Source: Paracyclopina nana (lineage: Eukaryota > Arthropoda > Copepoda > Cyclopoida > Cyclopettidae). From it: a stretch of 64,000 nucleotides of DNA. A program made the translations under genes and the position numbers. Below the pieces are notes generated by a model that saw nothing but the letters and a program-made list of their open reading frames with translations, had not been told where the DNA came from and did not search any database. Position 1 is the first letter of the stretch, and each line of letters starts with the position of its first letter. The stretch lies in the NCBI GenBank assembly GCA_019096065.1, contig JAGUCH010000002.1, positions 15,140,501-15,204,500 of the forward strand, in the 5' to 3' direction. This document shows positions 33,403 through 47,693 of the stretch, in pieces.

Positions 33403-33831
33403 CTAATTGTGAGCATGCTCCGCACCAAAAGGGACCGTCACATTGACCACGTGGTGATACACTTCTTGCGTTCTGTTCATTGGCCCATTGGTCATGAATC
33501 CGAGCAAGTACATGGGTGCCACTATCGAGAGTATTGCCATAGTCGACACTGGCGCTCCCAAAGCTAGCATACCCATCCCTAGGATTGGCATGCCAAGTGC
33601 CAAGCCCATAAACTCCATCATGTGTGTGTTATGCATTGCGTCCGACATTGAGTCTCGTATCTCGTCCACCCTACCATTCATATGCTTGATGACAGCATTG
33701 TCACTCTTGTCTATCGAGTCAAGGCCATGCTCAATCATTTTGGTCATCTCGCCGGAAAAAAAGTCGAGCAGAGTGTGATTCTGCAACAAAAATCCAGTTA
33801 CTTGGAAGCCCCTAGCTTTACTGGGTGACAT
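33403..33831 (-). CDS. small hydrophobic-segment protein, paralogue of cluster neighbour
   Basis: One uninterrupted frame of 142 aa on the minus strand starting MSPSKARGF. Its middle part, GLALGMPILGMGMLALGAP then AILSIVAPMYLLGFM, is a Gly/Ala/Met-rich hydrophobic hairpin that closely resembles the segment near the C-terminus of the 967-aa protein at 35390-38293. Potential N-glycosylation sites (NHT, NRT, NVT) suggest a secreted or membrane protein, but no signal peptide is visible. An acceptor-like TTTTTGTTGCAG inside the first 30 codons means the true 5' end could lie on an unseen exon. No known domain. Confidence 0.5.
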   Translation of the reverse strand: MSPSKARGFQVTGFLLQNHTLLDFFSGEMTKMIEHGLDSIDKSDNAVIKHMNGRVDEIRDSMSDAMHNTHMMEFMGLALGMPILGMGMLALGAPVSTMAILSIVAPMYLLGFMTNGPMNRTQEVYHHVVNVTVPFGAEHAHN

Positions 33832-33945
33832 AAGCTACTTAACTGCTTTAAGCTGTGCATAGCAGTCCGAAAAATGCTCAAAAATAAAAGGACAGACTAG
33901 TAAGGTAAGTTAGTTTATTAGAAAGTAAGTGCTTTTGGTATAGTT

Positions 33946-35312
33946 TTAAGCTCCACCATTGTTCAAGTAGGGAGAAACAGTTTTATACAGGTTCAAGATG
34001 CTTTGGGATAGCTTGAGTGCAATGATAGCTGTATCTTGGAGAGTGACACTTTTCTTCTCTGCACTCGGCTGTTGTTGTTGGGCATCATCTGCATAATCAA
34101 CTCTCGCATTATTCACCTTTTGTGCAGCTGAAGCGACCGCCCCTTGTCTTTGCTCCACTTGCTTCTGTGGGAAAATGTCACTATTTGTGTAGAAAGATTC
34201 TGGCAGTGGCTTTTGGCTCTCACTCCTTAATCCAGTGGCAGGTTTGTGGTAATAGCGGTCGGTTTTGGGGTATGGAGTGAGAATGGGTGTGGTAATGGCT
34301 GGTGCTGGTTGGCCAATGCTCATTTTGGTCTTGAGCATGTTGGTGTCAATCCTGTGATGGGCAAGCAGGGATTGCAGAGAAGTTGCTTCAACGGGAGCTC
34401 TTTTTTTCCTGAAATCCAGACCGCGGCCGAAATTGTTATTATTATTGTTGTTGTTATTCCCTCCTGAAACCGTAGTAACAACCCCTGTGGCATTAGATGC
34501 CAGAGCAACACCTTGAAATACTGGAGCCACTTGAGGCCTTAGTACTAGAGGCCTTGAGACAACACCGCCATTAGCAGAGTTTGAAGTTGACGTGGATGAC
34601 CCTGCTGCGGCAGCTGCTGAACACCCTCGTGGTCCGCACGAGGTTGAAGTTGAGGCTGAACCCTGATTAGGATTGGGTCTGGTCTGTTGCAGGATGGCAT
34701 CAAGGTAAACTTGGTTGAGCCAAAATGGTACCAAGCCATTGATTTGAATGTTATCAAGGGTCGTTCCTCCGGATGAGGATCCAGTATTGGAGCCTGTCCC
34801 AGATCCGCTGTTGGAACCAGAGTTGCCCATTTCCATTTGAGATAAGCTACTAGGTACGATTACTCGTTCGTTCATTTGATTGCGATTCTGTGGAACATTT
34901 GTTATGCGAGTCAGCAGATCTTCAGTCTGGACGGATTGTGGCTTAAAGGTAACCTTGTCAGAGGGCACAAAAGTGTCATCAGCGATTTGACGTGGTCGTT
35001 TCTTGAAGAACGTCAACGGTGACCACCTCTTCTTCCGGCTCAAGCTTTCGTCAGACCTCTGTTTGAGGAAGAAGGGAAACACATCCAAATCAGTCTTTTC
35101 CGCCTTCTTTCGAACCACATTTACAACTAAAGGTCGAGCATTGGTGTTCTGAGTCACGTAATCTTCTTTCCCACTCTTCAGTTTGACCAGGTTATTCTGC
35201 AGGAATGGCGAAGTCACTACTGCAATGTGGCCTGGGGAATTGTCTGGCCTTTTCTGCCCTGGCCTCGGCGTGACCACAAACGCTGGGAATCCAGGAAAAT
35301 AAGTGGCCACTC
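33946..35312 (-). CDS. Ser/Gly/Asn-rich secreted protein, start exon unresolved
   Basis: A single open frame of about 455 codons, from an acceptor-like TTGTTCGCAG (first coding base 35312) to a stop at 33946. It begins GVATYFPGFPAFVV, which looks like the end of a signal peptide. Dibasic/tetrabasic sites RKKRW and FRKKRAP suggest proprotein cleavage. Low-complexity blocks are Gly/Ser, poly-Ala plus Ser/Thr, and nine Asn residues. No ATG lies in frame before the open region: a minus-strand TATATAG at about 35367-35373 followed by a T7 run occupies the space to the next gene. Either a short first exon was missed or the T7 run is miscounted. Ser/Thr/Ala blocks resemble those of the neighbouring 967-aa protein. 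Confidence 0.55.
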
Positions 35313-35389
35313 CTGCGAACAAACAAAAAATGAAGCTGTACAACCCAAAAAAACCTTCTAAAGCCTATATAATGTAAAGTGCAAAGCAT

Positions 35390-38293
35390 TTATTTTCTTC
35401 CAAAATGATGATGACCATGGCTATGATCGTGATCAGCCTGCCTGGTTTCCCCAGTGCCATTGATTCTAGCTGCATTTTGCTCTACACGGAAGTGACGGAC
35501 TGCATCGATGAGGCCAGCAATTCCTCGTCGCGGGTGATGATGATGACCAGCTGCTCCTTGCCTTGAATTTGTGTTGCTTGGAGTCGTTTCAGTGAAGGCC
35601 GAAAACAGGAATCCAGGAATCAGAGTGGCCAACGGAGCTATGGCAAGGGTTGGTGCTCCCATCGTGGCCATGGCTAAGGCTGTCATAGGCACGCCAAAAA
35701 CCATGCCAGCCAGCATTCTCCTTCTCGTATCCATTGGCAGCTCTCTGACCATGTTAATAGTCCTCGTGACCACATCCCTGGTATCCACCTCTTCAGTATC
35801 GTTCAAGGATGGCCTCGAGTAAACCTGGTGCAAATGCTGCTGATCTGGCCTCAAAAATGGGAAAATGTCGGACAAGGGTTGGCCAGCATTGTGGCCCAAA
35901 ATTGAATTGGTTGGTCCCACTGGTGTCCCATCCGGATTGATCAATGGCAACCCGTCAGGGCCCAAAGGAATCAAGTGGGGAGGAATTGTGGTGCGTGATT
36001 GGCTTTGATCATTTGATATGGGCTCAAAGGGAGTTTTGATGTTGAATATGGCCTGGCCTTGTACAGGTTCATCCCCAAAATGGTGGCTGACCGCGTTTTC
36101 GAAGAACGCTTCCTCATTGTCTTCACTGGTAGGCGTCACTCCAAATGTGCCCATTTGGCCAGCCCCAAATCCAGGAGGAAAACTGTGCAGGCTAGACTGA
36201 TCTACAACTGGTGAAGAGGTATTACCTTGATCCCGAGTGGCGTTCAAGAGGTTGATCAACGAGCCCAATGAGTTGATGAGCTTGTCCAACTTTTCCTCGG
36301 AGGAGGACGAGCTTCCCTCAAAGAGCAAAGATCCTTCCGGAGAGAACACTGGACGTGTCACGATCCTGTCACTTGGCCTCTGGATCACTGTTGCATCCCT
36401 GTACTCCTCATAGTCGTAGAAAGGCTCGTCCAAGTAGACCTTATCTTGCTCCTCCTCATTTTCCACTTGCAAGCACTCCTCCATAGTTGTACAGTTGAAA
36501 ACGGGGACCAAAGGAGATTCTGTTGTCGTCGTGCTGGTAGAAGTTGTACTGGAGTCTTCGCCAAAGAGCTGCTCAAGCAAAAGATCATCGGCATCTTTGT
36601 AGTCATCGATGAACTCGTCGTTGCTGCTTACAGGATCGCAGCTTGCGTCCAGGCATGGATAGAACACATTATTATTGGGTGTTTCTACAAAGAGTTCCGG
36701 ACTATCGTTGATTCCTGTGCTGGTTGATGTTGAAGTTGAAGCTCCTGCACCCGCAGCAGCTGCAGATGAGGATGAAGAGCCATTTGGACTTTTTGAGGCT
36801 GAAGTTGACGTTGAGCCCACTGGCTGAGGACTATAGTTGTACGTGTTCACCCCACCCACGGTTAAAACGGCTGGTCTTTGTCTCGTCACAGGGCTGCTAT
36901 TATCATCATTACTAATCTCAGGTGCAAGAGGAGCCAAAATGGGTTTGCCACTCTGCTGAACCAGATTCTTGATGAAATTCGAGTTAGGTATGGAAAATCC
37001 CTGGTCTAAAGCTGGCGCTCCACCATCTTCATTATTAATGCCAGTTGTTTTTAGCAGAAGGTCTTCAGGATTAAACGCTTGCACAGCTGGTCTTGAGTTT
37101 TCAGAGCCTAGTTGTCTTTCTTGCAAGGATATGTCAAAGACATGCTGAGGGGCCGTTTTGTAAAGGAAGCTATTTTCGACTTCGTTTGAGTCGTCTACTC
37201 TTCCCGCCTTTTCAGGGGTCTTTTTCACAATGTACTCGTTTGATATGCCCCCCAACGAAGGTTTCTGCTTGAGGTTTTCTCGACGTGTTAGGAGGTAGAA
37301 GGGATCTTTGGTTGGTGATAATGTTGGAGGGGGAAAATAGGTCCTGGGTGGTATAATTCCAACTTCCGCATCTTGACTGAATGATGCCTCTTCTTGAGGA
37401 ATTCCCACCTCTTCCTCTTCAATAAGAGGAACTTCATTGTTTTTCGAGTCTGCTAATTTCTGAGCTTCTATTGCTTTGACGTATTCCAATTCTGATAGGT
37501 ATACAGGTTGGGAGTCTTTGAAATTGAGGACAGGCCCATCAAGATCCTCGTAGGTCTTGAAAGGCACATATCCCTCGTCTCTGGCCCTGTATGGATTTAG
37601 CACATTCAAATAGTTCTCCTTATACTCTTTCGAATTGGACCATTTGACCCATTCTTCTGGGCTCCAGCTTTTCCAGTTTTCATAATCAAATTGTGAATCT
37701 GCGGTTCCTTCTCCTCCCGAATCAGCTGGATTGTTCAGTTTCTCCTTGATTTTTTGCTGCATTTGCTTTTGAAACCAGAAATTTGGATGATTTTCCTTAA
37801 AGTAGTTAAACCAGTCCTCCTTTTTCCAGTCTGGCCGATTTGGCAGAGGCGTCGGAGTTGTGTAGGGCGTGAACGAGATAACGTATGGGGGCCTGGTTCG
37901 AGGTTTTCCTTCTGCTGAGAGTGGATCCCACAGAGGATATTTCGTTGAAGTCTCCGCAATTTCACCCTGCGTCTGACCTGTAACTCTCGTCAACAAAGCT
38001 TCATTGTTTACGGGAGTTATGGGCGCCTTTGTTGACACTTCCGTTTCCTCCTCCAAATCAGCTGTTGTCTTTGTTATCTCTTCCGGTTCCTCGTCTCCCA
38101 GTCTACCTAGCCGTTCTTTTACTGTGTCACTCGTCAGGTATTTGGAGCTCATAAGTTTCTTCAGTAGCAATGACACTTTGCTCTCAAAGTCTCCTTGTGG
38201 CGATTTGCTTTTATTCTGATCCTCGGCACTGATATTTAAGGCATGCAAATGATAGCAGCAAATCAGGCAGAGCAGGACTTTTTTTGCCTCCAT
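35390..38293 (-). CDS. large secreted Ser/Thr-rich protein with hydrophobic hairpin and His-rich tail
   Basis: An uninterrupted 967-codon frame. MEAKKVLLCLICCYHLHALNI is a signal peptide. The body is acidic and Pro/Ser/Thr-rich (probably O-glycosylated), with YENWKSWSPEEWVKWSNSKE and two Ser/Ala/Thr low-complexity blocks. Near residue 870 comes MLAGMVFGVPMTALAMATMG then APLATLIPGFLFSAF, a hydrophobic hairpin shared with the 142-aa protein at 33403-33831. The tail is His-rich (HHHHPRRG; DHDHSHGHHHFGRK) and may bind metal. I recognise no catalogued domain. A cuticle, egg-shell or gland-secretion role is possible but unproven. A TATA-like CATATATATG sits at about 38639-38648. Confidence 0.7.
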   Translation of the reverse strand: MEAKKVLLCLICCYHLHALNISAEDQNKSKSPQGDFESKVSLLLKKLMSSKYLTSDTVKERLGRLGDEEPEEITKTTADLEEETEVSTKAPITPVNNEALLTRVTGQTQGEIAETSTKYPLWDPLSAEGKPRTRPPYVISFTPYTTPTPLPNRPDWKKEDWFNYFKENHPNFWFQKQMQQKIKEKLNNPADSGGEGTADSQFDYENWKSWSPEEWVKWSNSKEYKENYLNVLNPYRARDEGYVPFKTYEDLDGPVLNFKDSQPVYLSELEYVKAIEAQKLADSKNNEVPLIEEEEVGIPQEEASFSQDAEVGIIPPRTYFPPPTLSPTKDPFYLLTRRENLKQKPSLGGISNEYIVKKTPEKAGRVDDSNEVENSFLYKTAPQHVFDISLQERQLGSENSRPAVQAFNPEDLLLKTTGINNEDGGAPALDQGFSIPNSNFIKNLVQQSGKPILAPLAPEISNDDNSSPVTRQRPAVLTVGGVNTYNYSPQPVGSTSTSASKSPNGSSSSSAAAAGAGASTSTSTSTGINDSPELFVETPNNNVFYPCLDASCDPVSSNDEFIDDYKDADDLLLEQLFGEDSSTTSTSTTTTESPLVPVFNCTTMEECLQVENEEEQDKVYLDEPFYDYEEYRDATVIQRPSDRIVTRPVFSPEGSLLFEGSSSSSEEKLDKLINSLGSLINLLNATRDQGNTSSPVVDQSSLHSFPPGFGAGQMGTFGVTPTSEDNEEAFFENAVSHHFGDEPVQGQAIFNIKTPFEPISNDQSQSRTTIPPHLIPLGPDGLPLINPDGTPVGPTNSILGHNAGQPLSDIFPFLRPDQQHLHQVYSRPSLNDTEEVDTRDVVTRTINMVRELPMDTRRRMLAGMVFGVPMTALAMATMGAPTLAIAPLATLIPGFLFSAFTETTPSNTNSRQGAAGHHHHPRRGIAGLIDAVRHFRVEQNAARINGTGETRQADHDHSHGHHHFGRK

Positions 38294-39371
38294 CTTGTTC
38301 TCATTTCACTTTGAAGTGCATAACTGGACTGCTGCTGAACATTTTACTATGATGGCACACAAACGCATCATTTCAGTACAGTTCCTTGCTTAGGATTGTG
38401 AAGTAAAAATGATCACTTGCTTTGCGCAGGGTCGTGCAAAAGTGTGAGCGAGGGCCTAATGCCAAAACTTTCATGTAAACGACCCTGCCAGGATAGTGTA
38501 TATGCGTGAAATCATGGCACCGTAACCGTTTTCCCAGCGAAACTATCCAGACTATTTGAACAACCACCAAGGTGTGAAGGAGGGGACGGTCACTCAAATC
38601 CTGGTCGTCCTTTGTAATGCGTTTACCAAAGAGAAATCTGCATATATATGTACCAACTTCAGCCAATAAACTCGTTCACTTGTATCATATGTTTGCGGCG
38701 GCGGCGGTGGGTGGGAAAACGACCAGCTAAATATAGCTCTAAAAATAGAACATTGAGAAGAAATCTTTATCATGTTGTTGCCGTCATGCAGCAGCAAAAG
38801 TTGGCCGAATTTCGTAAAGTGAGTTGAATTGTTGCGCAGAGCAGTGCCCGAGTGGGCCAGTTTATACTCGACCTGTTCAACTTTGTATAACTGTACCTGT
38901 TGGCTCTCTGCTAGAAGAAAATGTTTCATGTCCTATGATGCTTATCATCGCATTCTTCTCCTCCGTTGGCTCGTGGTGCACATCGATGATGTGGGGAGCC
39001 TCAAAAGCATTACAAATCGCGCAAATTCCGCCAAATGGTCGACCTTCCTTTGTGCCATTGTAGCAGGGTCGGCACTTTCGCGGAATTCACTTGTTTTCAT
39101 ATTTATCCTATTTATGCTGCTATTCGATTACCTACTTGGTAATATGCACTAATTTCGTGTGAAATATGTGTCGAAAGAACTCGCTATCTGCCGACTCGGG
39201 AAATCTGTCATGGTAGCGAAATTGCGACTGCAACGGAGAAAGTGAGTTGGTGAGCTTTAACGCCGTTTACGTATGTGCTACTATAGACAGACCGCAGCAC
39301 ACACGCATAACATATACGAAGAAGAGGGCCCAAAGTGAGAGTTGGCACCAACACTTTCAGTTGCTCATAAG
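38294..39371. other. intergenic region, divergent promoters
   Basis: About 1.1 kb between the 967-aa secreted protein (-) and the chemosensory protein (+). It contains the TATA-like CATATATATG near 38640. Open frames at 38824-39150 have no coding features. I see no repeat or RNA gene. Confidence 0.5.
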
Positions 39372-42957: not shown

Positions 42958-45140
42958 CTACAATTCAACAGAGCTAACTCGTCGGACCGCTGGAATGAGA
43001 CCAAGATTCATGTATTGTGGATTTTCCACTATCCTCTGGAAGGTGGCCATGAATTGGTTGGCAATGTTTTCATCAATAAATCTTCTGTCAAAGGACAAAG
43101 TGGCCCTCATGGCTGTATAAGGTTTTCCAGAGTCTGCGTCGATTTCAGTACTTCCAGCCCCTACGGCCATGATAGCCCCTTGAGGGGGGTTGATAATGGC
43201 TGTGAACTCTTTGATGCCCATCATGCCCAAATTGGAAATTGTGAAGGTGCCACCTTGAAACTCTTGCAGTTGAAGCTTTCCATCACGTGCTCGTAGTGCA
43301 AGGTCTTTCGTGGCACTCGAGATCTCAGGAAGGCTTTTGTTCACAACATCTTTAACAATAGGAGTGATGAGTCCATTGGGAGTTGCTACAGCTATGGAGA
43401 TATCCACATTAGGCATAAATTGGTAGTCATCCTCTCCGACCACATTTATGTTGACTTCAGGAACCATTTGCAAGGCAGTGGCCGCAGCCTTCACAACCAA
43501 GTCGTTGAGAGAAATCTTTATTCCGCTACCTAAGAAGTCCTTTCTTATGGCATTGAGACTATCAATGTTGCATTCAGCAGTGGAATAGCCATGAGGCGAG
43601 GTATTTTTGGATTGGCTCAACCTCTTGGCAATCACTGTTCTCATTGAGGTCAAGGGGATGTCAGTGTACCTGAGGTTTTGAGCTGATGAGCCCACTGATG
43701 CTGGCTTACTGGCAGCTTTCTTGGGCGCAGGAGCTGACACAGGCTTGGAAGTGATCTTGAGAGGTGTCAGCTTGTGCTCAGTCACATACTGCATGATGTC
43801 ACTTTTAAGCAAGCCTTTGGGGCCTGTAGGTGTTATTTTTGAGGGGTCAATGCCATACAACGCACTGAGGAGCATGACAGCAGGGCCTGCTCTTGGAACG
43901 GGGGCCACATGGGACTCGGTCACTTCTTTAGCCTCCGCTTTGACTGGCTTGGATGCCTGCACTGCCTGAGCGGGGGCATCATCATCTTCAGCAGGAATTT
44001 GCACATCTTTCCAGTCCTCTCCTTCGTTCACCATGAGGGCAATCAAGTTGTTGACTTTAACACCGGATTCACCTTCAGCAACTAGAATCTTGGCTAGTAT
44101 GGCATCATCGTCCCATTCCATAGCCACAACAGCTTTGTCAGTTTGAATTTCACAAATGACATCACCAGCATTTATCTTTTCGCCCTCCTTGACGTTCCAT
44201 TTGACTATGGTTCCCTCTGTCATGGTGGGTGATAGTGAGGGCATTTTCACTTCAATTCCCGGGGTCGAGCCTCCAGATGCAGCCTTTTTGGCCTTTTTCG
44301 GAGCCTCGGCAACTTGTGTGGCGCCGGGAATCTGCACATCCTTCCAATCCTCTCCCTCTGCAACTGTGAGTGCAATCAAAGTGTTGACCTACAGAGGGTA
44401 ATGAAGGTAACTTAAAAATGAAGAGCATTGGTAAAAGTAATGATCATACTTCGATTCCAGAGGAGCCTTCAGGGACAAGGATTTTGGCCAGAATTCCATC
44501 ATCATCCCATTCCATAGAGACAACAGCTTTATCTGTCTGGATTTCGCACAAGATGTCACCAGCGCTAATTGCCTCACCCTCTTTTTTGCACCATTTGACA
44601 ATCGTGCCCTCTGTCATGGTGGGCGACAAGGAGGGCATTTTGACCTCAACTCCAGGAGTGGAACCTCCACCAATGGTCTGTTGACTTGAAGGCTCGGACC
44701 TGACGCTTTCATCAGCAGACTTGTCACTTACTTCTACGTTCCTCCAGTCTTCGCCATCCTCAGCCAAAACTGCAATCAACGTGCCCACCTGGATGGTGCC
44801 AGAATCTTGGTTTTTCACGATTTTGGCCAAGGTTCCGTCGTCGTCGACTTCCAGAGCAACAACAGCTTTGTCAGTTTGAATTTCACACACGACATCACCA
44901 GCGCTGACAGGGTCTCCTTCGTTCTTCATCCATTTCACAATTGTACCTTCTGTCATGGTGGGAGACAAGGAGGGCATTTTCACCTAAAAGTTGAACTTTA
45001 TAATTTATGCTCCTTTTGTGATGACCCAAACTTGGAATTACCTCGATGGCATGCAAGGCTGCAGCAGTGTGAAGTCGGTTCAGTGAAAAGGCCGTTGAGG
45101 TCGCCTTTTTGGCCGCTGAGGCCACCAGCCGGCTCAACAT
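42958..45140 (-). CDS. pyruvate dehydrogenase E3-binding protein (PDHX-like), three lipoyl domains
   Basis: Mitochondrial core component that anchors dihydrolipoamide dehydrogenase in the PDH complex. Exons 45042-45140, 44450-44983 and 42958-44388 give about 687 aa. The N-terminus [20 protein letters not shown] is a mitochondrial presequence. Three lipoyl domains follow, each with [18 protein letters not shown] and the lipoylation site [10 protein letters not shown] peripheral subunit-binding domain comes next ([19 protein letters not shown]), then an acyltransferase-fold domain ([38 protein letters not shown]). The E2 active-site motif DHRxxDG reads DRRFIDE, lacking His and Gly, so transacetylase activity is not expected. 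That is the E3BP state, though vertebrate PDHX has one lipoyl domain. Divergent E2 with lost activity is the alternative. Confidence 0.85.
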
Positions 45141-45795
45141 GGCGCCACTTCAATGTCAGAAAGATAGAAAAGTGACTTTTGAAGTTCTGCTTCAAAAGCA
45201 AAATATCAGTGAACACAAAACAAATCATAAATAGCCTCTAGCTGAAAATTAGTATAAGTTCTTGAGAACAAAGTAAGAAATTAGTGCTAAAATAACTTTC
45301 GATTCTTCATGCTGATATTTTTGATTGCACATTTTTGTAGCGGTGTGGCATTTCAGAAAACAGCAGGATTTATGGTGTCTTTTCAGTTTTCAGAGTTTGC
45401 CCTAAAAATTACCATTAGCCTCTATTCGCCATTAGCTTTCGATCCGTTAAGCTCAATCCACAAAATGATATGTCTATCAAAAAGGAAACTTTGTTAGGGT
45501 ATGTAAAACATAAGGAAATGAAATCTGCTCCTTGAATTCGATGCAATTATGAATTAATAACCCATGGAATATCGAATGATCAGTTAGAAGTTCGTACATC
45601 AACATTAAAATAAATAAATTATTATGCCTTAGAATATGCTGGCCGCTCCGTATGCATGTTACGTAAATAAACAATTGCGATAGCATTGGAAACTTTCCTT
45701 TACAAAACTTTTGAAAAGTATTGAAAGAAAGTTCGTCAAAACATCACTCGTTAATCTTTGCCGCTACTGATATCACTTTTCATTTTTTGGAAATA
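45141..45795. promoter_or_regulatory. divergent promoter region, PDHX-like / COX17
   Basis: 655 bases between two head-to-head nuclear genes for mitochondrial proteins. No TATA box or repeat is evident. Short open frames here show no coding character. Confidence 0.45.
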
Positions 45796-45972
45796 ATGCC
45801 AGAAGAAATTAAACCTGTTAGTGAGGAGAAAAAGCCCTTGAAACCCTGCTGTGCTTGTCCCGAGACCAAAAAGGCACGAGATGAGTGCATAATTGAGAAC
45901 GGTGAAGAGAACTGCCAGCCTTTAATTGAAGCTCATCTGAAGTGCATGAGAGACCTGGGATTCAAAATCTAA
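45796..45972 (+). CDS. COX17: COX17 mitochondrial copper chaperone
   Basis: Carries Cu(I) to SCO1 and COX11 for cytochrome c oxidase assembly in the intermembrane space. Intronless, 58 aa. The copper site [16 protein letters not shown] and the twin CX9C motif (C-x9-[12 protein letters not shown]; then [11 protein letters not shown]) are complete, and the end MRDLGFKI is almost identical to the animal consensus. The stop codon is followed after 3 bases by the start codon of the next gene, so it is the first cistron of a dicistronic unit. Confidence 0.97.
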
Positions 45973-45975
45973 ATT

Positions 45976-46313
45976 ATGGCTGAAGCTAAAAACAATGTGA
46001 GTAATTCTTTACTAAACTCATGTCAAGCCGTCATTTTACACTTTTTCAAAATTATTTGCAGAATCCGTGCTTTGCCGAGAGCCAAGCATCGCTTCAATGT
46101 CTGAGTGAAAACAGCTATGACAACTCGTCCGATTCGAAATGCCAGCTTTTTTTTGAGAACTACAAGAGGTGCAAGACTTTCTGGCACGAGGTCACAGTTG
46201 CCCGACGAAAGGCAGGTCATCAACCTTGGATGCCGGAAAAGAAGGACTGGCCAGCATACCTCGAAAAGTTCAAACAGACACGAAAAGTTCCTGCGACAAT
46301 TGATGACGATTGA
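45976..46313 (+). CDS. CHCHD7: CHCHD7/COX23-like twin CX9C protein
   Basis: Intermembrane-space protein linked to cytochrome c oxidase assembly and copper homeostasis (Cox23 in yeast). Exons 45976-45996 and 46062-46313 join to 90 aa. MAEAKNNNPCFAESQASLQC gives the first C-x9-C, and CQLFFENYKRC the second. KTFWHEVTVARRKAG and MPEKKDWPAYLEKF match CHCHD7/Cox23. Its ATG lies 3 bases after the COX17 stop, so no separate promoter can fit. It must be translated from a shared mRNA by re-initiation or leaky scanning, or from an internally started or alternatively processed transcript. Confidence 0.92.
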
Positions 46314-46518
46314 GTTTGTTACGCTCGTTGAAGACTGCAGTCATGAATACATAGTCAATTTGACGATTTGTGTCGTCACACGAATTTCATACTAATCAAC
46401 TTTTATTCTGAAGAAGGACTGATGGAGTTTTCATAATTTTGATATATTTAAACTTCCCAGTTTTAAAGCAAGCCATTTTTGGTTTAGTTTTCACAGACCT
46501 GAAGTAGGAAAATCATTT

Positions 46519-47693
46519 TCAACGCCAACGACTATAGAAAGGAAAGGCAAATCCTTGATACTCGCACGTTTCATCATCATCATCATCCTCGTCGTAGTTT
46601 TCATTTTCGTAGTTTTCATCGTCGAAGTCTTCGTCAGAAGAGTCATCACTGACTTCGATTCCATGATCTTCCTCGACGTGCTCTTCGTCATGATCAACCT
46701 TTTTGATGTCATCGAATCCCAAGGCCCTTGCCTTCTTTTCCAACTTGCTAGCTTGGCATCTCAAAATCTGGAATTTACACTTGCAAACGCCTTTGCGGTC
46801 CATCCTAACAGCCATTTTGCGCAACTCAAGAGCTTCTTCGGCCAAAGCCTTGCCATCTTTCTCAACGTCAAAGACAGAATTGGGAATTTTGACACCATAC
46901 TTCAGAGCCTCTGAAACAAGCCCTGAAACATACGGATACCGGTGGAAAGATGGAAAGATGGTGGAAAGAGCCAATCCTTTTCGATAAAAATTAATTAATA
47001 ACACTTTTTCAAGGAGTATTGACTGTTTTTCAAAAAGTACATACTTTCAGCGAGCATTAACTTAATTTTCAATAAATAATTACTTTCAATAAAAGTACCT
47101 ACTTATTATCAATTAGTACTTATTATAATAAATTATTACTAACTTATTCAAAAAGTGAAGGGCCAACATTTTTCAATAAAAATTAATTAAAAACACTTTT
47201 TTCAAGGAGTATTTGACTGTTTTTCAAAAAGTACCAACTTTCAGCGAGCATTATCTTAATTTTCAATAGTAAGTGCTTACTTATTTTCAATTAGTGCTAA
47301 TTATAATAAATTAGTACTAACTTATTTTCGTTAAGTACAAATGTTTTCAATAAGTACTAAAACTGCTTTCTAAAAGCATTGACATGTTTTCAAAAAGCAC
47401 TTACTCTTTTTCTCCACGTCAAACGAACCGAGTTTTCCATTCAAGAGGTAGAATCGGATTTGCTTGAACAATTTGGGGCATCGATTTGGATAGGCCACCG
47501 GATCTTGCCTTGACAAGGCTTTGAACAAGGACGACGATTTGGCGAGTCGTTCTCCGGAAAGAACACCTTTCTTTATGTAGTAGTCTCCAAACTTGGACGG
47601 ATCCATGTCTTTCTCGCAACCTGGCTTGACAAGCCTAAAATGGAACGTGATGCCGCCAACAATTACGCTGGTCTTGGTCGTTGAGTTTTTCAT
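46519..47693 (-). CDS. unknown protein with very acidic C-terminus
   Basis: Exons 47405-47693 and 46519-46922 give about 230 aa. The N-terminal half starts MKNSTTKTSVIVGG and contains FHFRLVKPGCEKDMDPSKFG and PNRCPKLFKQIRFYLL, which suggest a compact domain. The second half has DRKGVCKCKFQILRCQASK, then an acidic, disordered tail (DDSSDEDFDDENYENENYDE type) ending FAFPFYSRWR. No signal peptide and no domain I recognise. The intron (46923-47404) contains a tandem duplication. Convergent with CHCHD7, 205 bases apart. Confidence 0.55.
46979..47345. repeat. tandem duplication of a ~190-bp AT-rich unit
   Basis: Two direct copies, about 46979-47169 and 47170-47345, share AAAAATTAATTAA, TTTTTCAAGGAGTATT, GACTGTTTTTCAAAAAGTAC and CTTTCAGCGAGCATTA in the same order. 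The pair fills most of the intron of the acidic-protein gene. Confidence 0.7.

Follow-up and report, generated by a model that had tools for sequence, protein, structure and literature searches.

Are two factors of cytochrome oxidase assembly made from a single messenger in a copepod, and if so, by what route is the second of them translated? The question is raised by a 64,000-nucleotide (nt) stretch of the Paracyclopina nana genome (contig JAGUCH010000002.1, positions 15,140,501 to 15,204,500; hereafter the window), in which an open reading frame (ORF) for COX17 is followed on the same strand, three bases further on, by one for CHCHD7/COX23. Judging from the anatomy of the locus, we consider it very probable that the two are read as one dicistronic mRNA. 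This arrangement had been proposed in an initial annotation, whose coordinates, 3-base gap and intact same-strand frames are right to the base, and the sequence also agrees with the 65-base intron that it placed after seven codons of the second cistron (Table 1).

The case for one mRNA

By their protein homologies, both ORFs are real. The first product scores 82 bits against Pfam PF05051, whose cut-off is 24.9, has human COX17 (2rn9, 9.2e-24) as its best solved-structure match and carries the CCxC copper motif (C18, C19 and C21) together with a twin CX9C motif (C21-C31 and C40-C50). Among solved structures, the second product matches human CHCHD7 best (2lqt, 4.6e-15; runner-up 0.19), and the name rests on that match because Pfam gives general models alone (COX6B, CHCH and others), all under their cut-off; an NCBIfam search returned no match for either protein. 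CHCHD7 has four cysteines only (C10, C20, C34 and C44), all of them in the twin CX9C motif. Both proteins had been annotated as twin CX9C factors with a role in copper handling, and whereas the motif is indeed common to both, sequence support for copper handling is limited to COX17, because CHCHD7 has no CC pair. The two proteins align weakly with one another (20 bits), and in the assembly (91,952,342 bases, 10 contigs) each gene gave a single match, in searches run at E 1e-3 and E 1. The assembly also holds eighty matches to PF00379, a cuticle protein family, as befits an arthropod. Searches of viral and prokaryotic contig collections yielded pattern matches and, by tblastn, no relative, a result that has no bearing on arthropod synteny.

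A single mRNA is by far the likeliest source of both proteins, since three bases are too short for a promoter, a poly(A) signal or a good splice acceptor. We scanned positions 45701-46700 for AATAAA and eight variants: none of the nine occurs between the cistrons, the sites found being at 45808, at the start of COX17, and at 46346 (AATACA), past CHCHD7. The gap also falls within the inter-ORF range of -34 to 319 nt given for fly loci whose transcripts are all polycistronic (PMC4528330), and here too the frames are intact and share a strand. In yeast, the loss of cox23 is rescued by COX17 overexpression together with copper (PMC7909247), a pathway link that we count in favour of co-expression. 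Furthermore, MOCS2A-MOCS2B (6-nt gap) and, in two places, the Sloth1-Sloth2 layout are present in this genome, with Pfam support for the identifications, so that tight bicistronic layouts are within its repertoire; the C6 copy of the Sloth pair would need a much longer, putative Sloth1 intron.

An operon resolved by spliced-leader (SL) trans-splicing would instead place CHCHD7 on a capped mRNA of its own. Trans-splicing occurs in some crustaceans, and acceptor-like sites do stand just before the ATGs of downstream genes in other tight clusters of the genome, with scores of 13.5 (COA6-like), 12.0 (methyltransferase-like), 11.3 (NDUFAF8-like) and 10.0 (COX19-like). The score is a simple one made for this analysis, not a trained model, and 7-8% of window ATGs have a preceding AG that scores at least 11. 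Upstream of CHCHD7, however, the top-scoring AG within 60 nt of the ATG reaches 6.3, whereas five cis acceptors inferred elsewhere in the genome score 8.8-12.5, and the 60 nt before the COX17 ATG contain no AG. Neither the CopepodSL core (up to 3 mismatches) nor an amphipod-type SL pattern modelled on published leaders (at most 1 mismatch; other leaders are possible) has a match in the assembly, and no obvious SL gene was seen in the 4 5S loci inspected, of 12 taken from 47 5S matches. Trans-splicing at the CHCHD7 start, which the initial annotation had named as incompatible with its proposal, thus meets a poor acceptor-like AG, and we regard it as highly unlikely.

Two further explanations depend on the COX17 frame itself. 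If the CHCHD7 promoter lay inside COX17, the genes would be ordinary overlapping neighbours, but that promoter and a 5' untranslated region (UTR) would need to fit in the 177 nt that encode COX17, a conserved protein, which makes this very unlikely. The two frames are in phase across the stop (TAA ATT ATG), a point that the initial annotation does not mention and one that readthrough into a COX17-CHCHD7 fusion needs; against this, CHCHD7 has a good AUG of its own, TAA leaks less than the other stop codons and no context favouring readthrough is apparent, and such a fusion is hardly credible.

One mRNA for both proteins is therefore strongly favoured by the gap, the poly(A) signals, the acceptor, the copy number and the similar pairs, and it is on these that we infer it. 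The comparison with a bacterial operon that had been drawn for the locus fits as regards co-transcription, but the second cistron needs a eukaryotic route of translation. One promoter upstream of 45796, possibly within the 655-nt region shared with a divergent DLAT-like gene, would give a single capped pre-mRNA from which the second-cistron intron would be removed, leaving COX17, three bases and CHCHD7 in the mature mRNA. Most ribosomes would make COX17 and a minority would reach the CHCHD7 AUG, so that two cytochrome oxidase assembly factors would be co-expressed, COX17 presumably in excess.

Table 1. Features of the COX17-CHCHD7 locus (window positions) and of control and CX9C-type loci elsewhere in the assembly. 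First coding exons and introns are predicted.
Feature	Position	Strand	Details
COX17 ORF, first cistron	45796..45972	+	uninterrupted, single exon; 58 codons; stop TAA at 45970-45972
Inter-cistron gap	45973..45975	+	ATT, 3 nt
CHCHD7/COX23 coding exon 1	45976..45996	+	21 nt, 7 codons (MAEAKNN); ATG at 45976
Predicted CHCHD7 intron	45997..46061	+	65 nt, phase 0, GT-AG; donor AAT/GTGAGT, acceptor TTATTTGCAG
CHCHD7/COX23 exon 2	46062..46313	+	twin CX9C; stop TGA; predicted spliced protein 90 amino acids (aa)
Candidate alternative 5' splice site in COX17	45817..45822	+	CCT/GTTAGT, phase 0; speculative
Only out-of-frame AUG in COX17	45881..45892	+	opens 3-codon ORF (ATGAGTGCATAA)
TGGGA, core of TURBS motif 1	45956..45960	+	ends 15 nt before CHCHD7 AUG
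DLAT-like lipoyl-domain gene	42958..45140	-	divergent neighbour; start codons 655 nt from COX17's
Sloth1-Sloth2 (L030)	C6 near 2204344		14-nt gap
Sloth1-Sloth2 (L031)	C4 near 7893577		12-nt gap
COA4-like-PTRH2 (L018/L042)	C2:7457500-7464000		stop/start overlap TAATG; PTRH2 first coding exon 26 nt, intron 58 nt
CMC2-like-MTO1 (L035/L041)	C7:3605500-3613500		8-nt overlap; MTO1 first coding exon 17 nt, intron 62 nt
COX19-like-PPCDC (L043, L019)	C2:7005500-7012500	-	8-nt overlap ATGAGTAA in spliced reading; PPCDC first coding exon 5 nt, intron 105 nt
CMC4-like, 135-aa ORF, NDUFAF8-like, NUBPL-like (L040)	C1:9217000-9225000		all on same strand; spacings +14, +66, TAATG
Inositol-kinase ORF, COA6-like, methyltransferase ORF (L022)	C2 near 3193330	-	spacings 34 and 117 nt

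Splicing and translation of the second cistron

It had also been suggested that retention or alternative splicing of the CHCHD7 intron could control the ratio of the two proteins, but the sequence lends this no support: the splice sites are near consensus and the length is usual, other introns inferred in the genome (in the DLAT-like, Sloth1, PTRH2 and MTO1 genes) measuring 58-62 nt. Were the intron retained, CHCHD7 would be truncated to a 42-aa frameshifted peptide. The predicted exon junction lies 24 nt past the COX17 stop, which is closer than the distance of about 50 nt past a stop that is usually quoted for junction-dependent mRNA decay.

Alternative splicing could act in another way, by producing two mRNAs, one of which would skip COX17 by joining a donor within COX17 or in the 5'UTR to the CHCHD7 acceptor at 46061. 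This would remove the problem of how CHCHD7 is translated, and a donor at 45817 joined to 46062 would keep the frame and give a protein beginning MPEEIKP-NPC..., in which MPEEIKP replaces MAEAKNN, both of seven codons. The donor at 45817, however, agrees with 6 of 9 consensus positions, whereas for the CHCHD7 donor an identical count gives 8, and ATG-donor pairs scoring at least 6 were found for 6 of the 15 candidates in the 1.2 kb scanned, so that the site may be due to chance. We consider two mRNAs of this kind improbable.

If a single mRNA does serve both cistrons, we lean slightly towards termination-reinitiation rather than leaky scanning as the route to CHCHD7: we would put the former somewhat short of an even chance, the latter lower, and leave a small share to other routes. 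GAAATA precedes the COX17 AUG, placing A at -3, and the base at +4 is C; at the CHCHD7 AUG the corresponding two bases are A and G. In the control pairs the first AUG follows CACCC (MOCS2A) or TTTTG (both Sloth1), with C or T and no purine at -3, and from these contexts the MOCS2 and Sloth pairs look fit for leaky scanning. Reinitiation is preferred because the COX17 AUG is not weak, unlike that of the first ORF in the controls, and the close spacing of stop and start points the same way. Two AUGs lie inside COX17, one in frame and one opening the 3-codon ORF of Table 1, and we count this in favour of a shared mRNA. Near the junction stands TGGGA, the core of motif 1 of the termination upstream ribosome-binding site (TURBS); it may be a chance occurrence, as it is nearer to the AUG than the viral signals are and is made by Leu-Gly codons common to human COX17.

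Several points weigh against a dicistronic COX17-CHCHD7 mRNA or against one of its routes of translation. From CHCHD7 up to 46700 there is no AATAAA or ATTAAA, the AATACA being the only signal present. The acceptor score separates poorly, for the AG before the ATG of MOCS2B, a bicistronic control, scores 10.6 and so falls inside the range of the inferred acceptors. COX17 and COX23 do not interact (PMC7909247). Leaky scanning calls for a weak first start and a stronger second one, and COX17 has A at -3; its single out-of-frame AUG, as against 2.65 expected under synonymous recoding, is not a significant depletion (P 0.16). For ordinary reinitiation, in turn, 58 codons is long, and RNA folding around the junction shows nothing unusual (z 0.27).

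CX9C-type loci elsewhere and the neighbourhood of COX17

Of all that we describe, the layout that recurs among the CX9C pairs of this genome most deserves further work. Matches from the search with COX17 and from searches with three families, which are no full census, gave nine loci with a recognisable ORF, eight of them twin CX9C and one COA6-like with CX9C-CX10C (cysteines 25, 35, 46 and 57). L023, L024, L025 and L036 were dropped, having no open frame with the twin motif. A same-strand neighbour lies within 120 nt at six of the nine loci, and at four of those six the start of the downstream gene either falls on the stop of the upstream one or is no more than 8 nt from it. On visual reading of the ORF lists, the CHCHD2-like, NDUFA8-like and CHCHD3/6-like loci have no close same-strand neighbour. 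The orthologue names of the cluster genes are those we take to apply; Pfam support in the clusters comes from PTH2, GIDA, Flavoprotein, NUBPL-type ParA, IPK, Methyltransf_32, Cmc1 and COX6B.

The clusters differ in detail. COX19 would run to 94 aa if unspliced, and 20 nt upstream of the COX19-like gene ends a long ORF of coiled-coil type, presumably CCDC174. The COX19-like-PPCDC pair is likely the counterpart of the fly transcript CG30290, whose main product we take to be PPCDC. In the CMC4-like cluster, the predicted start and the CX9C frame of the first gene are one base apart, owing to assembly error, splicing or decay; the ORF that follows encodes 135 aa from its ATG within a 138-codon open frame and has no Pfam family, and the NDUFAF8-like and NUBPL-like genes are presumably two complex I assembly factors. 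By our own matching, this CMC4/NDUFAF8-like cluster is an apparent counterpart of fly transcripts with twin-CX9C upstream ORFs (uORFs). The strong acceptor-like sites that immediately precede the ATGs of the COA6-like and methyltransferase-like genes possibly reflect trans-splicing or 5'UTR introns; a score of 13 is reached by about 0.3% of window ATGs and one of 12 by 2-2.5%.

We put forward, as a doubtful proposal, that in this lineage twin-CX9C factors occupy the first position in coupled bicistrons of a stereotyped form, with stop and AUG within 8 nt, a tiny first exon and a reinitiation or splicing unit. Its members would be COX17-CHCHD7 (+3), COA4-like-PTRH2 and NDUFAF8-like-NUBPL-like (both TAATG), and CMC2-like-MTO1 and COX19-like-PPCDC (both -8). 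At least four of these five pairs allow a reading in which the second cistron opens with a coding exon of 5-26 nt and then an intron of 58-105 nt, a regularity that is post hoc, the splice readings having been picked for keeping the frame and without a background for first-exon length. For NUBPL-like, a 19-nt first exon is possible among several equal readings (introns 43-88 nt), and the gene was left out of the pattern count. Such a unit might work by termination-coupled reinitiation, with a junction so near the first stop that junction-dependent decay would be avoided; alternatively, the intron might decide between a first-cistron-only and a two-protein mRNA. Intron loss by mRNA decay in the second cistrons was set aside, since MTO1 seems, by eye, to contain further introns.

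Within the window, the 655-nt region between COX17 and the lipoyl-domain gene, which we take to be DLAT, may be a bidirectional promoter shared by mitochondrial genes. Further away, at 33403-38305 on the minus strand, two adjoining same-strand ORF groups end near 35390 and 33403; by eye their hydrophobic C-terminal stretches are alike, and they are perhaps a tandem duplicate. A tRNA scan of the 64-kb window with the bacterial code found none.

Comparison with known systems

The operon-like layout of COX17-CHCHD7 is of a kind known for other animal gene pairs and joins a class that already has many members, FlyBase release 6.04 listing 159 dicistronic pairs (PMC4528330). Among the open-access literature matches listed we found no COX17-CHCHD7 bicistron, although supplements such as FlyBase File S1 may list the pair. 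Hayden and Bosco described fly transcripts with twin-CX9C uORFs, namely CG9865 (uORF1 and uORF3), CG30290, the main ORF of which encodes a putative flavoprotein enzyme, and CG9288 (PMC2276209); the excerpted text of that study does not name COX17-CHCHD7 as a pair. In these transcripts the upstream cistron is twin CX9C, whereas in COX17-CHCHD7 both cistrons are.

The bicistronic genes of green algae resemble the locus in having close ORFs, the second of which is translated from the same mRNA (PMC11291117). They differ in relying on leaky scanning, with a weak first start and AUG depletion; in COX17 the former is absent and the latter not significant. Influenza B M1-BM2, which uses termination-reinitiation at UAAUG (PMC3035654), likewise has stop and start close together, and a TGGGA stands upstream here too; a TURBS system is defined by a motif 1 complementary to helix 26 of 18S within a tested upstream element. 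The influenza B signal, however, comprises 45 nt with tested motifs, while the TGGGA in COX17 may be a chance match. MOCS2A-MOCS2B resembles the locus in that a single mRNA, probable in our case, carries both members of a pathway pair, but those are two subunits of one enzyme (PMC2276209, PMC4528330), and MOCS2B in this genome lies within a single open frame of 324 codons and lacks a short first exon, unlike CHCHD7.

If confirmed, the pair would mean that COX17 and COX23/CHCHD7, linked genetically in yeast, have become fixed on one mRNA, and would provide a complex IV counterpart to the complex III pair Sloth1-Sloth2. Together with the other CX9C pairs, it makes testable whether arthropods couple assembly factors of the respiratory complexes through bicistronic mRNAs, and also whether overlap of stop and start, where a tiny exon comes next, means termination-reinitiation. 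In function and build, the closest analogue is Sloth1-Sloth2 (SMIM4-C12orf73) of Drosophila, which likewise consists of small related mitochondrial assembly factors for one respiratory complex, encoded on the same strand with a gap of a few bases (PMC9681215). In the fly the two Sloth ORFs lie 5 nt apart on one mRNA, whereas in jawed vertebrates, for example mammals, the genes are on different chromosomes (PMC9681215). The two systems differ in the complex they serve, Sloth complex III and COX17-CHCHD7 complex IV, and in the first start, which in fly Sloth is non-optimal, with reporter tests supporting leaky scanning (PMC9681215), and in COX17 is not weak.
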